A stretch of 10,175 nucleotides of DNA from Victivallales bacterium (GTDB lineage Bacteria > Verrucomicrobiota > Lentisphaeria > Victivallales > UBA1829). The notes beneath the pieces were generated by a model that was not told the DNA's origin, did not search any database, and saw nothing but the letters and a program-made list of their open reading frames with translations. The stretch is taken from positions 1-10,175 of the forward strand of contig JAEEQO010000099.1 in NCBI GenBank assembly GCA_016285335.1, in the 5' to 3' direction. Positions 576-10,175 of this stretch are shown in pieces. Numbering within the stretch: position 1 is the first letter of the stretch; each line of letters begins with the position of its first letter. The position numbers were made by a program, and so were the translations under genes.

Positions 576-610
576 AAAAAAAGCCCCGGACCTCACACGG
601 GATCCGGGGC
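576..610 (-). terminator. Rho-independent terminator of the GH9 gene
   Basis: On the minus strand an 8-bp perfect stem (GCCCCGGA, 603-610, with TCCGGGGC, 583-590) encloses a 12-base loop and is followed at once by seven T residues (582-576). It begins 29 bases after the GH9 stop codon. There is no T-tract on the other side, so it acts in one direction only. Confidence 0.9.
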
Positions 611-639
611 CTGGATTTCAGTTCGATTTCAGCTGAATT

Positions 640-3363
640 TCATTTTTTCGACTTCACCATGCTCTTGAAGGCTTCTCCGAAGATCAGGTAACTGCAGTTG
701 CCCGCGATCGTGCCTTCGTTCTGTCCCCACAGGAACGGCCAGTCGTCGAAGTTCTCGAAGTGATCGGGCCTGCGGAACAGCAGACCGGGCGCCACGTTGC
801 CCGGGATGAACGAGAAGTCGGCGCGGTTGTTGCCGTAGAAGACCTCCTTGGGACGCGCCGCGCCGACGGCGGCCACCAGCGAGTAGTTGTGGTACGGATG
901 GCAGCCGAACATGAACGCGGCGGCCTTGTAGGCGTAGCTCTTGTCGATGATGTCGGGGAAGTAGAGGTTGGCAAGGCAGGCCGTTGCGCCGAAGCTGACC
1001 ACGGAGCCGCTGCCCGCCCAGTTGCCTTCGCCGATGGGCACGCCGTACGGGTTGAGCGTGTCGAAACGGTCCATGTACGCCTTGTACTGCGCCACGTAGG
1101 GCGCGAGCTTCTGCTTGTATTCGGCGTCCATATAGGGGACGGCGTCGAGCGCGGTCCTGATGCCGCCGTTCACGTTGCGGCTCAGGTCCTGCCAGATCTG
1201 CTGCTCGAACCGCTCCAGATAGGATTTGTCGCCGGTCGTGCGGTACAGCTGGAAGTTGAGGCCCATGTTGTTGCCGCCGAAACCGCCGCGGCGGTTGCCG
1301 TTCGCGCCGCCCGCCAACGCCGAATTGTCGGATTCTCCCGAAAAGCGCCTGGCCTGCTTCATGCAGCGTTCGGCGAGTTCATCGTTGTAGCCCTTCAGAA
1401 CGCGTGCGGCGGCGGCGAACATGGCGGCCGCATTGGGGTTGGGCCCGGTGTTGCCGCCGGCGAACGCCCACATGTCGTCGGGGGTGCCGCTGCGCTTGCC
1501 GTCTTCCGACTTCACGTATTTGGGCAGGCTCGGGTCGTAGTGCAGGCCGTCGGTGATGGCGGCGGCGTCGCCCAGATGATGGTAGTTGTCCAGGACCGAG
1601 TTGGAAAGGGTCCTCGACATCTGCCCGAGCTGCTCGGCCTGCGCAACCAGGTTCAGTACGCCGTGTTCGATGTACTGCAGCAGGTCGGGCTTGCCGTCCG
1701 GACGGTGCAGGTCCACATAACGCTGCTCCTCGCTCACGAACGTCTCGTCGCGCTTGTTATGGAAGAGTTCCCACGCTTCCACCAGACTGCGGACCACGCC
1801 GATGTTCGCGCCGGTCTCGATGTCGAAGTCGCCCGCGTCGAAGTAGCCGCCGACGTTCAGTCCCGGGATGAGTTCGTAGGGCTCGTAGTGGGTGCCGTCG
1901 GGCTTCACGGCGGTGACCCGTCCCTGGGAGTGCATGTCGAAGTGATCGCTCGGCGGGGCCTGCAGATAGCCTTCCTTGAAGGGTTCGCCGTGCCAGATGC
2001 GGTACGCCTCGTTGACGGTCATGTGGTTCATGTGAATGGGGATCCACACGTCGCTGGTGGCGTCCGTCATCCAGTTGTAGACGGAATCGTCGATGATGAA
2101 GTTGCCGGACCTGTATTTGCCGTAGCGGATGAAGTAAATGCCGGGCGTTTTCACCTGGCTGAAGTCGAACTTCACATAGTTGTATTTATAATAAGCGCCC
2201 CATACGTCGGTTTTGCCCTGGTATGCCAGCTTTTCGCCGCCGTCGTCGGTGATCCTGTAGATCGCCGCGTTCGCGATCGGCTTGTCGTTCTTGTCGATCT
2301 CGATCACGGCGATCTTGGGCTGCGAGGGGACGTATCCAACCTGGGAGAACCCGATGTTCGGCTCCCGGATCCAGCCGGGAACGGCGTTGGGCTCGACGAT
2401 CCAGGTGATCACCTTGCCGGTCTTCTTCGCGGGCAGCGTGCTGCGCAATACGAACCAGCCGTTCTGCGCCAGGATGCGGCCGTCGTACAGCTCCAGCGTG
2501 GAATCCGTCGATGTGATTTTGATCATGCGTTCCGGCTCGTCGGGCGCGATGATGATGGAATGTCCCTTTTCAAGCGGCAGCGGGTCCACGAACTCGCCGG
2601 TGCCGCGGTCGTCGTAGGTGCGGAATCCCTTGAACTGCCGGGGTTTCTCCTCGTTCGGCAGTGCCTGGGTCCTGCTGACGGCGTAACGGGGGAATCTGTT
2701 CGGGCGGCCGTCCATGAGGTAGGTCTTGCCCCAGTACTGGGACGGCAGGAACTCCAGGTTGAACCCCGCCTTGCCCTCCAGAAACGCGGGCAGCGGCTCG
2801 TCCAGATAGACGTCGATCTCCACGGCCTTTCCCTTGCCTGTGACCACCACGCGCGAGTTGAAGTTGTAATCGTTGTAGCGCATCCCGACCTCGATGGAGT
2901 TGTTCTCCGGGTTCACCCTGCGCGTGGGAGAAGCCGGGACCAGGTCCCACTGCTCCGGGGTCTTGGAAAGCCTCACCGCGCCGCCCTGAACGGTCCTCAC
3001 GCCGTGATGGATGATCTCGATGCCGGAATTCTTCTCGTCGTTGAACCCGCCCGTGAACGCGTTGCTGAACACCAGCACATTCACGCCCGGACGCTCGAAA
3101 TACTGCATGTTGTTCAGGAGCAGCTTTTCCGGGTCGAGCTTCTGCGCCGGCTGCTGTTGAGACTGGCCCTGCCGGGGTTGCTGCCGGGTCTGGCCCTGAC
3201 GGGGCTGCTGACCTTGCACCTGGGGCATCTGCCGGGTCTGGCCCTGACGGGGTTGAGGTTGAGTTTGAGCTTGCCGGGTCTGCTGGTTTTGTGCCCGGGC
3301 AAAGACGGCGGGCAGCGCGATCAGCGCGGCGACGATGAGGGAGGAACAGGAGCGGAAGTTCAT
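640..3363 (-). CDS. Secreted family 9 glycoside hydrolase (cellulase-like)
   Basis: The product is a predicted endo-acting beta-glucanase/cellulase exported from the cytoplasm. From the start at 3363 it has 907 residues. Domains in order: signal peptide 1-24 (ends FARA), a Gln/Arg-rich low-complexity linker ~25-75, a beta-rich region ~80-330 (VLVFSNAFTGGF, IEIIHHGVRT, GKAGFNLEFLPSQYWGK) known from PVC and Bacteroidota GH9 enzymes, a CelD_N Ig-like domain ~335-428 (SQVGYVP), and the (alpha/alpha)6 catalytic domain ~435-900. The GH9 signature GGYFDAGDFD supplies D509 and the probable base D512; GQNEGTIAGN near the end supplies the acid E883. An in-frame ATG at 3423 would add 20 residues, but 3363 has AAGGA at 8 bases and puts the signal peptide at the terminus. 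The usual P-x-HPHHR motif of cellulases is not seen, so true substrate is uncertain. Single-gene transcription unit. Confidence 0.92.
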   Translation of the reverse strand: MNFRSCSSLIVAALIALPAVFARAQNQQTRQAQTQPQPRQGQTRQMPQVQGQQPRQGQTRQQPRQGQSQQQPAQKLDPEKLLLNNMQYFERPGVNVLVFSNAFTGGFNDEKNSGIEIIHHGVRTVQGGAVRLSKTPEQWDLVPASPTRRVNPENNSIEVGMRYNDYNFNSRVVVTGKGKAVEIDVYLDEPLPAFLEGKAGFNLEFLPSQYWGKTYLMDGRPNRFPRYAVSRTQALPNEEKPRQFKGFRTYDDRGTGEFVDPLPLEKGHSIIIAPDEPERMIKITSTDSTLELYDGRILAQNGWFVLRSTLPAKKTGKVITWIVEPNAVPGWIREPNIGFSQVGYVPSQPKIAVIEIDKNDKPIANAAIYRITDDGGEKLAYQGKTDVWGAYYKYNYVKFDFSQVKTPGIYFIRYGKYRSGNFIIDDSVYNWMTDATSDVWIPIHMNHMTVNEAYRIWHGEPFKEGYLQAPPSDHFDMHSQGRVTAVKPDGTHYEPYELIPGLNVGGYFDAGDFDIETGANIGVVRSLVEAWELFHNKRDETFVSEEQRYVDLHRPDGKPDLLQYIEHGVLNLVAQAEQLGQMSRTLSNSVLDNYHHLGDAAAITDGLHYDPSLPKYVKSEDGKRSGTPDDMWAFAGGNTGPNPNAAAMFAAAARVLKGYNDELAERCMKQARRFSGESDNSALAGGANGNRRGGFGGNNMGLNFQLYRTTGDKSYLERFEQQIWQDLSRNVNGGIRTALDAVPYMDAEYKQKLAPYVAQYKAYMDRFDTLNPYGVPIGEGNWAGSGSVVSFGATACLANLYFPDIIDKSYAYKAAAFMFGCHPYHNYSLVAAVGAARPKEVFYGNNRADFSFIPGNVAPGLLFRRPDHFENFDDWPFLWGQNEGTIAGNCSYLIFGEAFKSMVKSKK
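3142..3291 (-). repeat. Gln-rich PRQGQTRQ repeat region of the GH9 gene
   Basis: Directly after the signal peptide the gene encodes about 50 residues made of Q, R, P, G and T, with PRQGQTRQ and variants (PRQGQSQQ, QPRQGQTR) recurring. At DNA level the matching strings gccgggtctggccctgacgg and close variants recur between about 3170 and 3260. This is a flexible, positively charged linker that may hold the enzyme near the envelope or a polymer; that role is inference. Confidence 0.75.
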
Positions 3364-3371
3364 GCTGATGA

Positions 3372-3376
3372 TCCTT
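3372..3376 (-). promoter_or_regulatory. Shine-Dalgarno site fixing the GH9 start at 3363
   Basis: AAGGA on the minus strand lies 8 bases before the ATG at 3363. The alternative ATG at 3423 has only a weak GAAGAG immediately before it, and would leave just ~10 bases of leader from the promoter at 3440-3468. Confidence 0.7.
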
Positions 3377-3439
3377 ATGCGGCGGAGAGAACCGCCGTTG
3401 TTGGGGGTTGTTGAGAAGGGCATCTCTTCATTTTTGAAT

Positions 3440-3522: not shown

Positions 3523-4224
3523 TCAGGCGGAGAACGACTTCGAGCGGAAGAACCGGAGGATCGGGTCGAGCGTGTACTTCGGATCGCGCAGGTCGGGATG
3601 CGTGCACGGCACCACGATCCGTTCGCACGGCTGACCATCCGGCAGAAGCGTGCTGCTCAATGCCACCTTGCCGTCGTATTTGCCCGCGACGATTCCGACC
3701 GGAGGCAGAAACGGCGGAGGCGGGATGTTCCGAACGTAGGAATCCGGCGACGGTGTCATGTCCGCGAGCGAGGCGTTGATGCCGCGGACCGCCCTGCTGT
3801 CCCCGAAATACGCGAGAAGGGACCCCCGGTTCGGCGGGCCGAGCATGACGACGGCTTCGATGCGGCGGCATTCGGCATCGTTCATCCGCGCGAGCGCGGC
3901 ACGGAGCAGGATGCCGCCCATGCTGTGCGTGACGAAGCACACATGCGCGGGCTTTTCCGTGCGCAGGAGACGGCGGTACAGCGTGAGGAAGATTTCAGAA
4001 TGTTCCCGGATGTTCCGTTTCGAGGTGGGGTAGTCGTAGTTGTAGACCGTGAACCCTTCGTCCGCCAGAGCGGACGCCAGACGCGCCATCGCGACAGCCC
4101 GCACGCCCCAGCCGTGAACGAGGAATACGGCATTCGTCTCCTGTTTTTTGCCTGCGGCGGGAACAGATTCGAGCTTGTGAAACCGGAATCCGCGCTCAAA
4201 ATAGTTTGTCAGGACATGCGGCAT
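3523..4224 (-). CDS. Cytoplasmic alpha/beta hydrolase (lipase/esterase-like)
   Basis: The 233-residue product is an alpha/beta-hydrolase fold enzyme, probably a serine esterase or lipase with unknown substrate. FLVHGWG (H37-G38) forms the oxyanion-hole strand, VTHSMGG gives the nucleophile S101 (T replaces the usual first Gly of GHSMGG), GKYDGKV gives a candidate acid D184, and VPCTHPDL gives the candidate base H209. Together these make a complete triad in the correct order. There is no signal peptide or membrane segment, so it should act in the cytoplasm. The length is short for a lipase but complete, resembling PGAP1-like/short lipase members. The start at 4224 follows GAGGGGG at about 6-8 bases. 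It has its own promoter and is transcribed away from the plus-strand cluster, which carries a second, larger GHSMGG hydrolase. Confidence 0.85.
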   Translation of the reverse strand: MPHVLTNYFERGFRFHKLESVPAAGKKQETNAVFLVHGWGVRAVAMARLASALADEGFTVYNYDYPTSKRNIREHSEIFLTLYRRLLRTEKPAHVCFVTHSMGGILLRAALARMNDAECRRIEAVVMLGPPNRGSLLAYFGDSRAVRGINASLADMTPSPDSYVRNIPPPPFLPPVGIVAGKYDGKVALSSTLLPDGQPCERIVVPCTHPDLRDPKYTLDPILRFFRSKSFSA

Positions 4225-4514: not shown

Positions 4515-5597
4515 ATGTTCAAAACGTTCAAAAACAGTCAAATGCGAACATCCGTGAAAAAGATTCTGATGCGATTCCTGCGCGCTCTGGGCATCCGGTC
4601 TCTGAAGACGCTTTTCTGGTTATCGTTTGTGGTGCTGGCGCTTGGCGTGCCGTGGTGCATCGGAGCATTGTTCCACGCATTCGATATTCCCGTTTTCGTT
4701 TCGTGGTGCGGCGTCGTCCTGCTGCTGGCTTCACTGATCGCGAGCCTGTTTTCCCGATGGGCGCTGCTTGGGACTTTGCTGATCGAAGTCCTGCTGACCG
4801 CGGTGTTCTGCCTCATCAACCCGAAAGAACGTTTCCAGCATACGATCTGGCAGAAACCGTGGTGGTATACGCTGGAAGTGAACAGGCTCGACGACGGCAG
4901 ATACGTGCTTCTCAATGTGCGGGATTTCGTCTACCGGTCTGTGACGGATTACGATGTTCAGTACCACACCGTAACCGTCGACCCGGAGCAGATCTCTTCC
5001 ATCGATGCGGTGTTTTCGCATTGGGACAACATGGAGGAGATCGCGCATTCCATGCTTGGACTGAACTTCGCTGACGGCACGACGGTCGTGATCTCGCTGG
5101 AGACGCGCCTGCCCGAGGGCGCCAAACAGAACGGCATCGACGGGCTCTACCGCCGCTACGGACTGGCAATGCTCGCCGGCACGCCGGAAGACCTCTACGG
5201 ACTGCGCGTCGACCACCGCGGGGAAACGCTCTATGTCTACCGCCTGGACATGGATCGGCAGACCATGCGCGACACGGTCCTTTCGCTTTTTGAACGGGCG
5301 GCGGAGCTTCAGCGGAACCCGCAGTTCTACAACAGCCTCTACCGCAACTGCACGACAGGATTGCTGCCGATGCTGCCGACCGCTGACCAGCATCTGGACA
5401 GCGACGACATCCGCCTGATGCTGAACGGAATGGCGGCGAAGATGCTTTTCGAGAAAGACCTGATCGTTCACCGCGAAGGGGAAAGCTTCGGCTCGATCCG
5501 GGCGCGTTCGCTCGTGCCGGGGCTTTGCCGCGGCAAGGACGCGCCGCCTGCTCACTACGCCGGCGAATCGGAGGCCGGCTGGCTCCGCGAACACTGA
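4515..5597 (+). CDS. Membrane protein with DUF4105 / Lnb-type domain
   Basis: This 360-residue product has three predicted membrane helices (~33-54, 58-79, 82-100) followed by a domain I recognise as DUF4105, now named for Bacteroides Lnb, a lipoprotein N-acyltransferase. Conserved features are NVRDFVYRS (134-142), EEIAHSMLGL with H178, ISLETR (193-198), and YNSLYRNCTTG with C279. The His and Cys are the presumed catalytic pair of this thiol-enzyme-like fold. The C-terminal part would face the periplasm if the three helices leave the N-terminus inside. It is the first of four closely spaced plus-strand genes, two of which encode lipoproteins, which fits but does not prove a lipoprotein-modifying job. 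Start is uncertain: neither 4515 nor the in-frame ATG at 4542 (MRTSVKK, a typical positive N-terminus) has a clear Shine-Dalgarno. Family assignment is strong; activity is inference, as many DUF4105 proteins are uncharacterised. Confidence 0.82.
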   Translation: MFKTFKNSQMRTSVKKILMRFLRALGIRSLKTLFWLSFVVLALGVPWCIGALFHAFDIPVFVSWCGVVLLLASLIASLFSRWALLGTLLIEVLLTAVFCLINPKERFQHTIWQKPWWYTLEVNRLDDGRYVLLNVRDFVYRSVTDYDVQYHTVTVDPEQISSIDAVFSHWDNMEEIAHSMLGLNFADGTTVVISLETRLPEGAKQNGIDGLYRRYGLAMLAGTPEDLYGLRVDHRGETLYVYRLDMDRQTMRDTVLSLFERAAELQRNPQFYNSLYRNCTTGLLPMLPTADQHLDSDDIRLMLNGMAAKMLFEKDLIVHREGESFGSIRARSLVPGLCRGKDAPPAHYAGESEAGWLREH

Positions 5598-5630
5598 ATC
5601 TGTCTGTTACGAGTCAAATAAACAAAACCT

Positions 5631-5636
5631 GAGGAG
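5631..5636 (+). promoter_or_regulatory. Shine-Dalgarno site of the lipase lipoprotein gene
   Basis: GAGGAG stands 8 bases before the ATG at 5645. It is the clearest ribosome binding site on the plus strand and contrasts with the carboxylesterase at 9070, which has none. Confidence 0.85.
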
Positions 5637-5644
5637 ATGAATTC

Positions 5645-7603
5645 ATGAAACAAAACTTCGGACGGAGCCGTTTTCCCGGTTGGTTCCGCATGGGCTTGAT
5701 CGTGCAACTGGCCGTTATGGCGTCGGCTTGGCTGCTGCTGACTTCATGCTCGTTCATCGAGAGCCGCGAGGTGACGATTTCGCCCGCGTCGGCAGCGGAG
5801 AAGGAGAGCTATTATCAGGATGAAGCCTTCTCCCGCGAAGGGCTTTCCTTCGAGTCCGAGAACTTCCTGCGGGGCAATATGGAGCAGGATGACCTCAAAG
5901 AGAATCCGGAGGTGACGCTGCACAAACTCAATGTCTATTACGATATCTCCGAAGATCCGAAATTCCTGCGGATCGCCGCCGATTACTGCCGCTGGCTCGC
6001 CTTGGAGTCGGGCGATGAGGAATTTGCCGTTCGCGCCCATCTGTCCGCACTCTACTACGTCAGGCGCGCGGCCATGGCGCGGACGCAGATGCGTGGCAAT
6101 GCCTCGAGCTATGACTTTTCCGACTTTCGGATGATGCAGATATACAACGATGCCTGCCGGGGAGTATTCAGCTTCCTGAAGTCGCACAAACTGCTTGCGA
6201 ACAATTCCTTCAGCCTGCTGGACATGGAGGACAGGCGTTACTTCTTCCAGGCGCCCCATTATCATCTTTCCGTCCCCGACGACACGGTCGAAGATTTTAC
6301 CCTCTGTTCCGACTACACCGTCAATGCTCTGATGCAGAAGAACCGGCAGCCGGGCGTCGGGATCCCGCTGGTCGGACAGGTGACGCAGCAGGAAAACTAC
6401 CATGTGCTGAAAAGCCCGCGCGGTCTCACGATCCCGGTGACGCTGATCGTGGGGCTCCGGGAGTCCGACTCGCATGTCATGGAAGTAACGATGCACTATC
6501 TGGACACATCGCTGGAGGAAACGGCCCCCAAGGAGCTTGAGTTTCTGGCGGCCGGGAACTGGCCGCTGGCGCTGGACTTCTCCACCCCGCTCGCCTGCTT
6601 TCTGAACAGCCTGCCCAACCGCAATCTGATTTCCGTCATGGTCAAGTCCGATGATCAGGATGACCACTCCGGGCTGTTTCTGATCGAACCGTACCAGCCG
6701 GGCAAGATCCCCGTGGTCTTCATCCACGGGCTGATGTCCAGTCCCGACACCTGGGTCCAGATGATCAACGCGCTGAAAAATGACCCGGTCATCCGGAATC
6801 GCTACCAGTTCTGGTTTTACTCATTTTCCAGCGGCGTGCCGGTCATGGCGACCGCCGGCAATCTGCGCAAAGTGCTGCTTGCGGCGAGGGAGGAACTCGG
6901 CACTACGCCGGAAGCGCGCGAGAACTTCGACAAGATGGTCCTGATCGGCCACAGCATGGGCGGCCTGGTCTCCCGCACGCTCCTGCAGAGAGATCCGCAC
7001 TTCATCGTCGAACAGGTCACGCACCGCACATGGGACGAGATCACCTCCGAACTTACGGAGGAAGAACTTGCCGTGGTCGAGGAGTACGCCGTTATCCCGG
7101 CGCTGCCGTTCGTCAACCGCGTTGTTTTCATGGCCGTGCCGCACAGGGGGTCCGAGATGGCGCAGTGGTCGCTCACTCGATACGGATCGAAGCTCGTCAA
7201 CCTCCCGAAAGCCCTGCGGGAAAAGATGCCGATCTTCGGCCGGGTGTTCCAGAAGCTCAACAAAAACACCGAAGAGATCGAAAAACTGCGCAAAGCCAGG
7301 AAGGAGACCGGAGACGACCATTCCATCACCGGACTCCATGATCTGGATCCTGACTCCCTCTTCATCCGGGCGCTCTCGGAATCCCCCATGAAGGAAGGGC
7401 TCGTCTTCCATTCGATCATCGGCGATAATGAACAGGCCGATCATCCCGGCGGCACCGACGGCGTGGTGCCGTACTCCAGCAGCCATCTCGACAACGCCGA
7501 AAGCGAAGTGATCGTCCATTCCGGACACAGCATCCACCGCAGCCCCGGCGCCATGCAGGAACTGCTCCGCATCCTGCGTCTGCATCTGCGGGAAGTGGAA
7601 TGA
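5645..7603 (+). CDS. Lipase/esterase lipoprotein with GHSMGG motif
   Basis: The 652-residue product is a predicted outer-membrane lipoprotein with an alpha/beta-hydrolase domain. The signal ends in lipobox LTSC with C35; Ser at +2 gives no inner-membrane retention signal. Residues ~60-200 are mostly helical, and ~230-340 form a beta-rich region (GIPLVGQV, FSTPLACFLN) that I associate with a widespread family of large lipase lipoproteins in Proteobacteria and Planctomycetes. The catalytic domain begins at PGKIPVVFIHGLMSSPDTW (H361-G362, oxyanion hole). GHSMGG supplies nucleophile S437, GTDGVVP supplies D605, and HSGHSIH near the C-terminus supplies the base, H628 or less likely H631. The triad is complete. 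It sits 47 bases after the DUF4105 gene and 42 before the dipeptidase gene, probably in one operon. Likely substrates are lipids or esters at the envelope; none can be named from sequence. Confidence 0.88.
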   Translation: MKQNFGRSRFPGWFRMGLIVQLAVMASAWLLLTSCSFIESREVTISPASAAEKESYYQDEAFSREGLSFESENFLRGNMEQDDLKENPEVTLHKLNVYYDISEDPKFLRIAADYCRWLALESGDEEFAVRAHLSALYYVRRAAMARTQMRGNASSYDFSDFRMMQIYNDACRGVFSFLKSHKLLANNSFSLLDMEDRRYFFQAPHYHLSVPDDTVEDFTLCSDYTVNALMQKNRQPGVGIPLVGQVTQQENYHVLKSPRGLTIPVTLIVGLRESDSHVMEVTMHYLDTSLEETAPKELEFLAAGNWPLALDFSTPLACFLNSLPNRNLISVMVKSDDQDDHSGLFLIEPYQPGKIPVVFIHGLMSSPDTWVQMINALKNDPVIRNRYQFWFYSFSSGVPVMATAGNLRKVLLAAREELGTTPEARENFDKMVLIGHSMGGLVSRTLLQRDPHFIVEQVTHRTWDEITSELTEEELAVVEEYAVIPALPFVNRVVFMAVPHRGSEMAQWSLTRYGSKLVNLPKALREKMPIFGRVFQKLNKNTEEIEKLRKARKETGDDHSITGLHDLDPDSLFIRALSESPMKEGLVFHSIIGDNEQADHPGGTDGVVPYSSSHLDNAESEVIVHSGHSIHRSPGAMQELLRILRLHLREVE

Positions 7604-7622: not shown

Positions 7623-7649
7623 ATGGAACAACAAAAGGTTTTCGCATGA
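7623..7649 (+). other. Possible 8-codon leader ORF coupled to the dipeptidase gene
   Basis: ATG at 7623 follows GAGG (7611-7614) at 8 bases and encodes MEQQKVFA before a TGA that overlaps the dipeptidase start as ATGA (7646-7649). Another in-frame ATG at 7617 is too close to GAGG. Such an arrangement would permit translational coupling. The dipeptidase ATG also has its own AAAAGG at 7 bases, so the short ORF may be chance. Confidence 0.3.
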
Positions 7650-8446
7650 AAAGACTTCTGAATTCGATTGCGGCGCGCAGGGTGTTCGCCGCCGCGAAGC
7701 ACTGCCTGTGCATCATCGCCGCGTCGACCGCCTTGCTCGCCGCGACGGCCTGCCGGACTGCCTGCACTGATGATTTGCCGCCGCAGGGGTTCGTGTATGT
7801 GGCGGAAGCCGTGCCGGACGCGATCCTGGAGGTCCGCTACTACTCCACCTACAATTTCGTCGGCGACCGCATCCGCGGCTACGAACGCCCCGCGCCCATG
7901 CTCACGGTCGAGGCGGCCGAAGCATTGAAGGCGGTGAGCGACGAGCTGATCCCGCAGGGTTACCGCCTGAAGATATACGACACCTACCGCCCGCAGCGGG
8001 CCGTCGATCACTTCGTGGAGTGGTCGAAGAAAGCCGGCGACACGCGGATGAAACAGTATTTCTACCCCGACCTCGACAAGACCGTGCTGTTCCCGCAGGG
8101 ATACATCGCCGCGAAATCCGGCCACAGCCGCGGCAGCACCGTGGACCTCACGCTGTTCGATATGAACACGGAAAAGGAAGTCGACATGGGCGGAACGTTT
8201 GACTGGTTCGGACCGGAAAGCCATCCCGACTGGGGCGGAAACCCCGAGACGCAGCAATTCACTGGTAAATTCCCCGCCGACACGCCCGCCGAACGAAAAA
8301 TCAACGAGTTCCAGTTCCGCAACCGCATGCTGCTCCGTTCGGTCATGCTGAAACACGGATTCAAACCTGTTGATACGGAGTGGTGGCATTTCACGCTCGA
8401 AAACGAACCGTACCCGGACACGTATTTCGACCATCCGGTCAGATGA
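7646..8446 (+). CDS. ddpX: D-Ala-D-Ala dipeptidase (VanX/DdpX type), lipoprotein
   Basis: The enzyme is a zinc metallopeptidase of family M15D that splits the dipeptide D-Ala-D-Ala. It has the expected motifs: IYDTYRPQ with the transition-state Arg R115, SGHSRGSTVD with zinc ligands H160 and D167, and EWWH with catalytic E245 and zinc ligand H248. Early motif VRYYSTYNFVG is also typical. At 266 residues it is longer than cytoplasmic VanX (about 200) because of an N-terminal export signal ending in a lipobox-like ATAC, C36, so it should be anchored at the periplasmic side of a membrane. There is no vanH, vanA or two-component pair nearby, so glycopeptide resistance is not indicated; peptidoglycan turnover or use of D-Ala-D-Ala as nutrient is more likely. 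It ends 7 bases before the GNAT start, consistent with one operon. Confidence 0.93.
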   Translation: MKRLLNSIAARRVFAAAKHCLCIIAASTALLAATACRTACTDDLPPQGFVYVAEAVPDAILEVRYYSTYNFVGDRIRGYERPAPMLTVEAAEALKAVSDELIPQGYRLKIYDTYRPQRAVDHFVEWSKKAGDTRMKQYFYPDLDKTVLFPQGYIAAKSGHSRGSTVDLTLFDMNTEKEVDMGGTFDWFGPESHPDWGGNPETQQFTGKFPADTPAERKINEFQFRNRMLLRSVMLKHGFKPVDTEWWHFTLENEPYPDTYFDHPVR

Positions 8447-8453
8447 GGCCGCC

Positions 8454-9011
8454 ATGAGCGAGATCGAAACGAAACGTCTTCTTCTCCGGCCGTTCCGCGA
8501 AAGCGACGCCGCGGATGTGCTGGAATACCTGAGCGGCCCTCTGCCGCACTGCTTCACAGGACTGAAGATCGACTCGCTCGAGGAAGCGCGGGCGGAGGTG
8601 GTGAAACGCGGCGAAGATCCCGAATACTGTTTCGCAATCGTGCTGAAGGAGACCGGCAGGGTCATCGGAGAGATCGACGCCGAGCCGTCGGACTACTTGC
8701 CGCCGATGCTGCGTTCGCGGGAGACGCCTCCGGCGTTCCAGGACACGTTCACCCCGAGCCTGATCCTGAACGCCGCGCATCAGGGTAGCGGCTACGCATA
8801 CGAGGCGACGTATGCCCTCTTCGACTATCTTTTCACGCGGAAGGGCGCGCGCCGGATTTATTCCTATGTGGACGATTACAATGCGTGCAGCCGGCATCTC
8901 TGCGAAAAGCTCGGCATGCGCCACGAGGGACTTTTCCGGTCGTTCGTCTCGTTCGTCAACGATGCCGATGGAAACGAAGGTCCATTTCACAGCCTGGCCC
9001 GGCGGTCATGA
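8454..9011 (+). CDS. GNAT N-acetyltransferase with abnormal C-terminus
   Basis: This is a RimJ/RimL-type GNAT enzyme that would transfer acetyl from acetyl-CoA to an amine; substrate unknown. ETKRLLLRPFRESDA is the typical N-terminus, HQGSGYAYEA (109-118) is the acetyl-CoA binding loop with Q110 and G113, and CEKLGMRHEGLFRSFVSFVNDADGN is the typical late region. In relatives the latter continues with a segment like YENTMQYAILKKEW; here it turns into GPFHSLARRS and stops. Thus about 15-20 native residues are missing, including the last beta strand. I take the true start as 8454 (GAGG at 5 bases, MSEIETK); the longer in-frame reading from 8370 overlaps the dipeptidase gene and has no family resemblance. 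The last ~11 codons are probably foreign sequence read in the wrong frame, so the product shown is likely not a functional whole enzyme. Confidence 0.85.
   Translation: MSEIETKRLLLRPFRESDAADVLEYLSGPLPHCFTGLKIDSLEEARAEVVKRGEDPEYCFAIVLKETGRVIGEIDAEPSDYLPPMLRSRETPPAFQDTFTPSLILNAAHQGSGYAYEATYALFDYLFTRKGARRIYSYVDDYNACSRHLCEKLGMRHEGLFRSFVSFVNDADGNEGPFHSLARRS
8972..8990. other. Probable chimeric join between two unrelated loci
   Basis: GNAT similarity ends after the conserved DADGN (8961-8975), and esterase similarity in another frame begins by about 8977-8985. Both gene parts are truncated at the same point with no intervening mobile element. The pattern fits an assembly mis-join at a short shared string or an illegitimate recombination breakpoint. 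Confidence 0.65.
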
Positions 9012-9066
9012 GTGGCAGCCCTGGCGCAAGTCCCTTCACGAATTCGTTCAAATGTTGTTCAAATAG
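8976..9066 (+). pseudogene. C-terminal fragment of a PF00756-type esterase
   Basis: In the frame +1 relative to the GNAT gene, the sequence encodes KVHFTAWPGGHEWQPWRKSL followed by HEFVQMLFK and TAG at 9064-9066. The pattern WPGGHxWxxWRxxLxxFxxxLF is the hallmark ending of Esterase-D/enterochelin-esterase-like proteins (PF00756), where the His of GGH is the catalytic base. These are common in Bacteroidota, often beside carbohydrate-active enzymes. Only ~29 of the family's 250-400 residues remain. The fragment begins exactly where the GNAT stops resembling its family, so its 5' part has been replaced by the GNAT gene. The identification rests on a short but distinctive motif. Confidence 0.72.
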
Positions 9067-9069
9067 ACT

Positions 9070-10175
9070 ATGAAAAAGGTTTTAATCATCATGACGGCGG
9101 CGCTCGCCCTCTGGGCCTGCGCTTCCGAACCCGGCCGGGTGAAAGTGACCGGCGGAACCATCCAGGGTACGGTCCTGGAAGACATGACTGTTTACAAAGG
9201 CATTCCCTTCGCCGCACCGCCGGTGGGCGAACTGCGCTGGAAGGCACCGCAGCCCGTCGTGGCTTGGAAAGGAGTCCTGGAATGCAAGGAATTCGCTCCC
9301 AACCCGATGCAGGGAAACGGCGAAGGCTGCAGCGAGGACTGCCTGTACCTGAACGTATGGACACCCGCCAAGAGCCCGAAGGATAAGCTCCCGGTGATGG
9401 TCTGGATCTACGGCGGCGGTTTCGCCGGCGGTGCCACTTCCTACTATGACGGAGCTTTACTGGCCCGCAAGGGAGTGATTCTCGTCAGCGTCGCTTACCG
9501 CGTAGGCAAGCTGGGCTTCCTGTCCCTGCCGGAACTCTCGGCCGAGAATCCGAACGGTGTGAGCGGCAACTACGGCCTGCTGGACCAGATTGCCGGACTG
9601 CAGTGGGTGAAGGACAACATCGCGAAGTTCGGCGGCGATCCGGACAAGGTGACCATTTTCGGCGAATCTGCCGGCGGCATCTCCGTGAGCATGCTCTGCG
9701 CTTCTCCCCTGGCAAAGGGCCTCTTCCGCGGTGCCATCTCCCAGAGCGGTGGCTCCTTCGGTCCCACCAATCCGCAGTCTTATCCCGGTGAAAACATGCA
9801 GACCCTCGCCGTCGCCGAGCAAGCCAACGCGGCTTGGGCCAAAGGCGCTTTCGGCGAGGATTATACGTTGGAGCAGCTGCGTGCGGCGGATGTCAAGGCC
9901 GTCATGGGCGGCTTCGGCGGTTCCGGCGGCTGGCCCGTCACGGACGGCTATGTGATTCCGGACGACCAGTACAAACTGTACGAGGCCGGGAAATACAATG
10001 ATGTCGATGTCCTTATCGGCTATAACTCCGACGAAGGCCTGAGCTTCGGCTTCTCCTTTGGCGGCGGCAGCCACGAAGACCAGGTGCGCGCCCGCTATGA
10101 GGATTATGCCGACGCCCTCCTCGCCGCCTATCCGGTCGAGGCCGACGGCAAGGTGGGCAAGACCGCCCGCGACCT
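9070..10175 (+). CDS. Type-B carboxylesterase lipoprotein, 3' end missing
   Basis: The gene runs off the right edge after 368 codons of an expected ~500-540. It is a serine esterase of the carboxylesterase/cholinesterase family (PF00135). Hallmarks are YKGIPFAAPPVGELRW near the N-terminus, EDCLYLNVW (89-97), the oxyanion loop YGGGF (114-118), FGESAGG with nucleophile S200, and YNSDEG with catalytic acid E322. The catalytic His lies beyond the window. A hydrophobic signal ends LALWAC with C17, so it is a likely lipoprotein, though Trp at -2 of the lipobox is unusual. The ATG is only 3 bases after the esterase fragment's stop and has no Shine-Dalgarno; both features, plus sequence style, suggest Bacteroidota, where esterase genes cluster in polysaccharide or ester-using loci. 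It probably belongs with the preceding esterase fragment and not with the genes left of 8975. Confidence 0.9.
   Translation, partial: MKKVLIIMTAALALWACASEPGRVKVTGGTIQGTVLEDMTVYKGIPFAAPPVGELRWKAPQPVVAWKGVLECKEFAPNPMQGNGEGCSEDCLYLNVWTPAKSPKDKLPVMVWIYGGGFAGGATSYYDGALLARKGVILVSVAYRVGKLGFLSLPELSAENPNGVSGNYGLLDQIAGLQWVKDNIAKFGGDPDKVTIFGESAGGISVSMLCASPLAKGLFRGAISQSGGSFGPTNPQSYPGENMQTLAVAEQANAAWAKGAFGEDYTLEQLRAADVKAVMGGFGGSGGWPVTDGYVIPDDQYKLYEAGKYNDVDVLIGYNSDEGLSFGFSFGGGSHEDQVRARYEDYADALLAAYPVEADGKVGKTARD

Follow-up and report, generated by a model that had tools for sequence, protein, structure and literature searches.

A metagenomic contig joining Lentisphaeria and Bacteroidales DNA inside a GNAT gene is very probably chimeric

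Two broken genes meet close to the right-hand end of the window, by which we mean the whole stretch of 10,175 nt that was analysed here. The frame of a GNAT acetyltransferase (8454–9011) reads ...FVNDADGN up to position 8975 and then continues with EGPFHSLARRS and a stop codon. A second frame (8977–9066) encodes KVHFTAWPGGHEWQPWRKSLHEFVQMLFK, followed by a stop codon of its own, and a carboxylesterase starts at 9070. An earlier note on this DNA had read the arrangement as a GNAT gene fused out of frame to the tail of a PF00756 esterase. A metagenomic mis-join was offered as the simplest reading, and a true recombination boundary, by which an esterase cluster had been acquired, as the more exciting one. 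Does the locus hold a new kind of gene, a boundary of DNA transfer or an artefact? Our analysis points to a chimeric metagenomic contig, a reading we hold to be very probable: the DNA up to 8975 belongs to a Lentisphaeria bacterium, that from 8976 to 10175 to a ruminant-gut Bacteroidales bacterium, and the two were joined artificially (Table 1).

Table 1. Annotated features of the window on either side of the join.
Feature	Position	Strand	Evidence or remark
GH9-type glycoside hydrolase with CelD_N domain	643..3423	-	Pfam PF02927/PF00759
Lnb_N-domain protein	4515..5597	+	PF13387; 75-79% amino acid identity in 5/5 fetched left-hand loci
Alpha/beta-hydrolase, lipase-like	5645..7603	+	Pfam; 74.5-79% amino acid identity in 5/5 fetched left-hand loci
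M15 D-Ala-D-Ala dipeptidase-like protein	7646..8446	+	PF01427
GNAT acetyltransferase, residues 1-174, cut at the join	8454..8975	+	PF13302, E 4.5e-18; open reading frame extends in foreign DNA to 9011
Join of left-hand Lentisphaeria and right-hand Bacteroidales DNA	8975..8976	.	Block identities; 1 nt common with Bacteroidales relatives
PF00756-type esterase, last 29 codons and stop, 5' part missing	8977..9066	+	28/29 identical to the esterase end of L002
Type-B carboxylesterase, 5' part, cut by the contig end	9070..10175	+	PF00135, E 2.4e-91

We used the 185-residue GNAT frame as query for a protein search and inspected the best 120 of the 1929 proteins found, one of which is the window's own. 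In every one of the 119 others, the equivalent of residue 174 is followed by PVYENT or a close variant. Homologues ending in LARRS would have spoken against a join; none occurs among these 119 (again of the best 120 of 1929). Within the same set of 120, P0002 to P0017 share 95–98% identity over 94% of the query, and P0003, which is named Lentisphaeria bacterium, is 97% identical to the window's GNAT as far as residue 174 (94% query coverage). The GNAT of the left-hand (Lentisphaeria) family commonly has about 24 more residues (PVYENT...LK.EW...) where the window becomes foreign; the window's copy and those in the loci L098, L099 and L101 belong to the same protein family and lie in the same lipase neighbourhood. 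In the family of genome G434, reached through the lipase, the GNAT was found in 9 of 36 genomes (E 1e-30), with a normal tail in eight of the nine and cut by a contig end in the ninth. The GNAT-like sequence ends at DADGN, as the earlier note had said, and a foreign tail follows. Most likely, no biological gene corresponds to the fused frame (GNAT plus EGPFHSLARRS).

A search of solved structures confirmed the GNAT family and yielded nothing further, and neither the GNAT nor the M15 peptidase had relatives among the viral contigs scanned. The cluster to which protein P0001 belongs has two member sequences on one contig. Another assembly breaks inside the same GNAT gene: in L100, a contig of 8321 bases, the match (7903–8319) stops after residue 133.

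On the other side of the join, the relatives are of a different kind. Of the 29 residues of the fragment, 28 are identical to the C-terminus of an esterase in the Bacteroidales locus L002 (96.6%, E 1.2e-18), and this esterase, a 357-residue open reading frame at 4924–5994, belongs to PF00756 (E 8.2e-20, Pfam having been run on L002 only). The claim that the frame ending at 9066 is the C-terminus of a PF00756 esterase is borne out by this relative. It is not borne out by a Pfam match of the fragment itself: the 84-residue open frame containing the esterase tail, of which about 29 residues are esterase-derived, matched no Pfam family. Taken literally, this is an outcome that the earlier note had named as speaking against a join; given the 28 of 29 residues identical to a PF00756 protein, it does not do so in substance. 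A complete esterase catalytic domain is absent from the window, only the last 29 codons being left.

The carboxylesterase places this fragment in its context. When genome contigs were scanned, the best 80 of 155 relatives were kept, and among these 80 an amino acid identity of 85–95% was found in 24 loci, all titled as Bacteroidales or Bacteroidia MAGs and many of them from the ruminant gut. Identity reaches 95% to L001 and 93% to L002, L005 and L007. With these four ruminant-gut Bacteroidales MAGs, the window DNA forms a single alignment from 8975 or 8977 to 10175 (1.2 kb, 87.9–88.9% nucleotide identity). Upstream in all four lies an esterase that ends in ...AAGAKVHFTAWPGGHEWQPWRKSLHEFVQLLFK (or ...LLFR), followed by 3 nt and the ATG of the carboxylesterase. 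The window agrees with this Bacteroidales pair (PF00756-type, then PF00135) in 27–28 of the 29 end residues, in the 3-nt spacer and in the downstream gene, but of the esterase itself no more than the last 29 codons are left. In 13 of the 24 closest loci (at least 85% amino acid identity), the esterase end is located directly upstream of the carboxylesterase (estimated gap about 3–62 nt); in five it is elsewhere in the locus, and the remaining six gave nothing above chance.

These results bear on a third explanation, according to which the GNAT with its divergent LARRS tail is a natural variant and the out-of-frame likeness to an esterase came about by chance. The frame is indeed open to 9011, and the esterase-like frame has no Pfam match by itself, but such a tail occurs in 0 of the 119 other homologues listed, the out-of-frame reading agrees with an esterase end in 28 of 29 residues and the surrounding DNA is 88–89% identical to that of the Bacteroidales relatives. 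We regard a natural variant as refuted by these three observations and allow it next to no probability; chance is excluded as the source of the esterase-like frame.

Where the two sources meet can be read from blocks of 12 nt. The block 8964–8975 is identical to the left-hand relatives L099 and L101 at 8 of 12 positions and to the Bacteroidales loci L001, L002 and L005 at 4–5 of 12; for the block 8976–8987, the values are 1 of 12 and 11–12 of 12, respectively. Block identities switch between 8975 and 8976, which agrees with the claim that both genes are broken at one position. The overlap at the join is 1 nt for six Bacteroidales relatives, against 0 nt for L099 and L101, and within 200 nt the two gene ends have no common word longer than 7 nt (two loci compared per side). 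Since the overlap is only 0–1 nt and the longest common word only 7 nt, the two pieces simply abut. Such a sequence is what a chimeric molecule or read, a blunt merge or a real end-joining or illegitimate recombination would each leave, and the join gives no apparent indication of a repeat-driven de Bruijn mis-join. With only 1 nt in common, a chimeric molecule or blunt merge therefore fits better than a repeat-driven mis-join.

To the left of the join, the relationship to one group can be followed across several genes. Of the five left-hand loci that were fetched, L099 and L101 show the order GH9, Lnb_N, lipase and GNAT, which is the order of the window, with different intervening genes. L098 carries Lnb_N, lipase, GNAT and M15 peptidase, so that GNAT and peptidase are swapped relative to the window; in L100, Lnb_N and lipase are followed by a GNAT that the contig end truncates, and L102 has only Lnb_N and lipase. 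The GH9 protein shares 69–70% amino acid identity with L099 (residues 7–702) and L101 (residues 2–700); the other three stretches that were fetched gave no match. For the M15 peptidase, an 82% match was found beside the GNAT in L098 and none in the fetched stretches of L099, L100, L101 and L102. Because the peptidase comes first in the window, the GNAT comes first in L098 and the peptidase is unmatched in L099 to L102, the small M15/GNAT neighbourhood is reshuffled within one family. In the databases, the best relatives of the lipase reach 90–95% identity and the best full-length relative of the peptidase 93%. The nearest nucleotide relatives of the left side are at about 75–84% in the main alignments.

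Proteins named Lentisphaeria also occur among the relatives of the lipase (P0200, P0229) and of the M15 peptidase (P0351); together with the name of P0003 and the phylum of the left-side genomes, their names suggest that these genomes are Lentisphaeria. In a draw of 387 genomes across the phylum of the genome of L039 (titled Lentisphaerae), with the 652-residue lipase as query, 95 genomes were matched at E 1e-50, and in five of these the identity was 75–80%. A class-wide search around the genome of L039 gave the GNAT in only 2 of 345 genomes, at 49% and 59%; the family of G434, which the lipase draw brought up, falls outside this class as searched (G434 is not among the 345), so that its placement in Lentisphaeria comes from the protein names. 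For the 233-residue alpha/beta hydrolase between GH9 and Lnb_N (3523–4224, minus strand), tblastn gave no match in any of the five left-hand loci, and the left part is therefore not tied to the Lentisphaeria group along its whole length.

Neither side was found in the family of the other. No close carboxylesterase occurs in the left-hand family of G434, where 4 of 36 genomes have relatives at 35–38% only (E 1e-30), and no close GNAT occurs in the right-hand Bacteroidales family, where 10 of the 299 genomes drawn have relatives at 28–33% (E 1e-10). A tetranucleotide comparison of the two sides, as proposed by the earlier note, showed a composition shift at the join that is weak and in the expected direction. 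The 4-mer score changes sign, from -0.035 in the left 1.2 kb to +0.022 in the right 1.2 kb, against held-out references of 0.021 for Bacteroidales (s.d. 0.026, n=60) and -0.068 for loci of the left-hand phylum (s.d. 0.016, n=17), the left-hand training loci including relatives of the window's own genes. The left 1.2 kb deviates from its own group by two s.d., and the GH9 stretch (601–3000) scores like the right side, that is, like Bacteroidales. The sign change agrees with two sources, but the make-up of the training loci, the deviation of the left 1.2 kb and the GH9 score make this weak evidence.

Two sources adjoin at 8975|8976, and on both sides the relatives continue without interruption. 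The best relatives of the two sides lie in different phyla: P0003 (Lentisphaeria) and the synteny in the phylum of L039's genome on the left, Bacteroidales on the right. How the two came together is less directly visible. One explanation is a real recombination junction, in which a Lentisphaeria cell acquired the Bacteroidales esterase end and the carboxylesterase gene after it through end joining within its GNAT gene. It is in line with a join that lacks a common repeat, as expected of end joining, and with Bacteroidales relatives that are, by their record titles, largely from the ruminant gut. Lnb_N, lipase, M15 peptidase and carboxylesterase all have open frames, which also suits a real junction and shows that the window is not a noisy single read. 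Transfer by end joining requires no mobile element, integrase, tRNA or border repeat.

Several observations argue against such an event. An exact 22-mer spanning the join was found neither in IMG/VR (0 matches) nor in the 85 loci gathered (0/85), and with the GNATs listed no second copy of the join appeared in any of the three. The 36 genomes of the left-hand family have no close carboxylesterase, as described above, and the Pfam scan of nine window proteins revealed no mobile-element domain. Nor does the window contain any Rfam family at gathering score. The right-hand Bacteroidales piece extends to the end of the contig, whose length of 10175 bases is that of the window, so that an insert would have no second boundary within the window, and the join cuts one gene on each side. 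We judge a true recombination between phyla improbable and a junction formed in this way very unlikely; a very recent transfer from Bacteroidales to Lentisphaeria by end joining, with its breakpoint inside the GNAT gene and carrying the carboxylesterase gene, is a shade less likely again. Beyond the missing common repeat at the join, there is little to recommend the recombination that the earlier note had found more exciting. Its simplest reading, a metagenomic mis-join, gains support from relatives in different phyla, uninterrupted continuation on each side and no second join found.

We infer that the join is of artificial origin. The two pieces would have been united in a chimeric library molecule or read, or else through a blunt merge of contigs; the GNAT gene would thereby have been severed after codon 174 and the Bacteroidales PF00756-type esterase reduced to its last 29 codons. 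What looks like a GNAT-esterase chimera most likely arose as an artefact of sequencing or assembly and not as a new kind of gene. Chimeric (interspecies) contigs are among what has been measured in metagenome assemblies (PMC7881036). As such contigs are outlined there, the window resembles them in combining two genomes within a single contig, but its join has an overlap of only 1 nt with known relatives.

The main value of this 10,175 nt contig lies in the warning it gives: it should be cut at 8975 before binning or mining. Left uncut, it would have a GNAT annotated with a false tail, and a Bacteroidales carboxylesterase would be credited to Lentisphaeria, with the possible consequence that a horizontal transfer is falsely reported.

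Some minor observations concern the two parts separately. At the left end of the window, an open frame on the minus strand (2–325) is cut by the contig start; it has a very high content of Gly, Ala and Pro and no Pfam match. In L099 and L101, repeat-like DNA matches are located in the GH9 stretch. Between lipase and GNAT, at the place of the window's M15 peptidase, L099 has a 659-residue open reading frame (7850–9829) that looks leucine-rich-repeat-like by eye. In L039, the MAG titled Lentisphaerae, there is a relative of the Bacteroidales carboxylesterase at 63%, which may reflect transfer, bin contamination or old shared ancestry. Finally, in the Bacteroidales loci L013, L014, L015, L017 and L019, about 1.7–5 kb separate a relative of the esterase tail from the carboxylesterase, and in L013, L014 and L017 this relative is on the opposite strand; given this distance in five Bacteroidales loci, esterase and carboxylesterase are not always adjacent.
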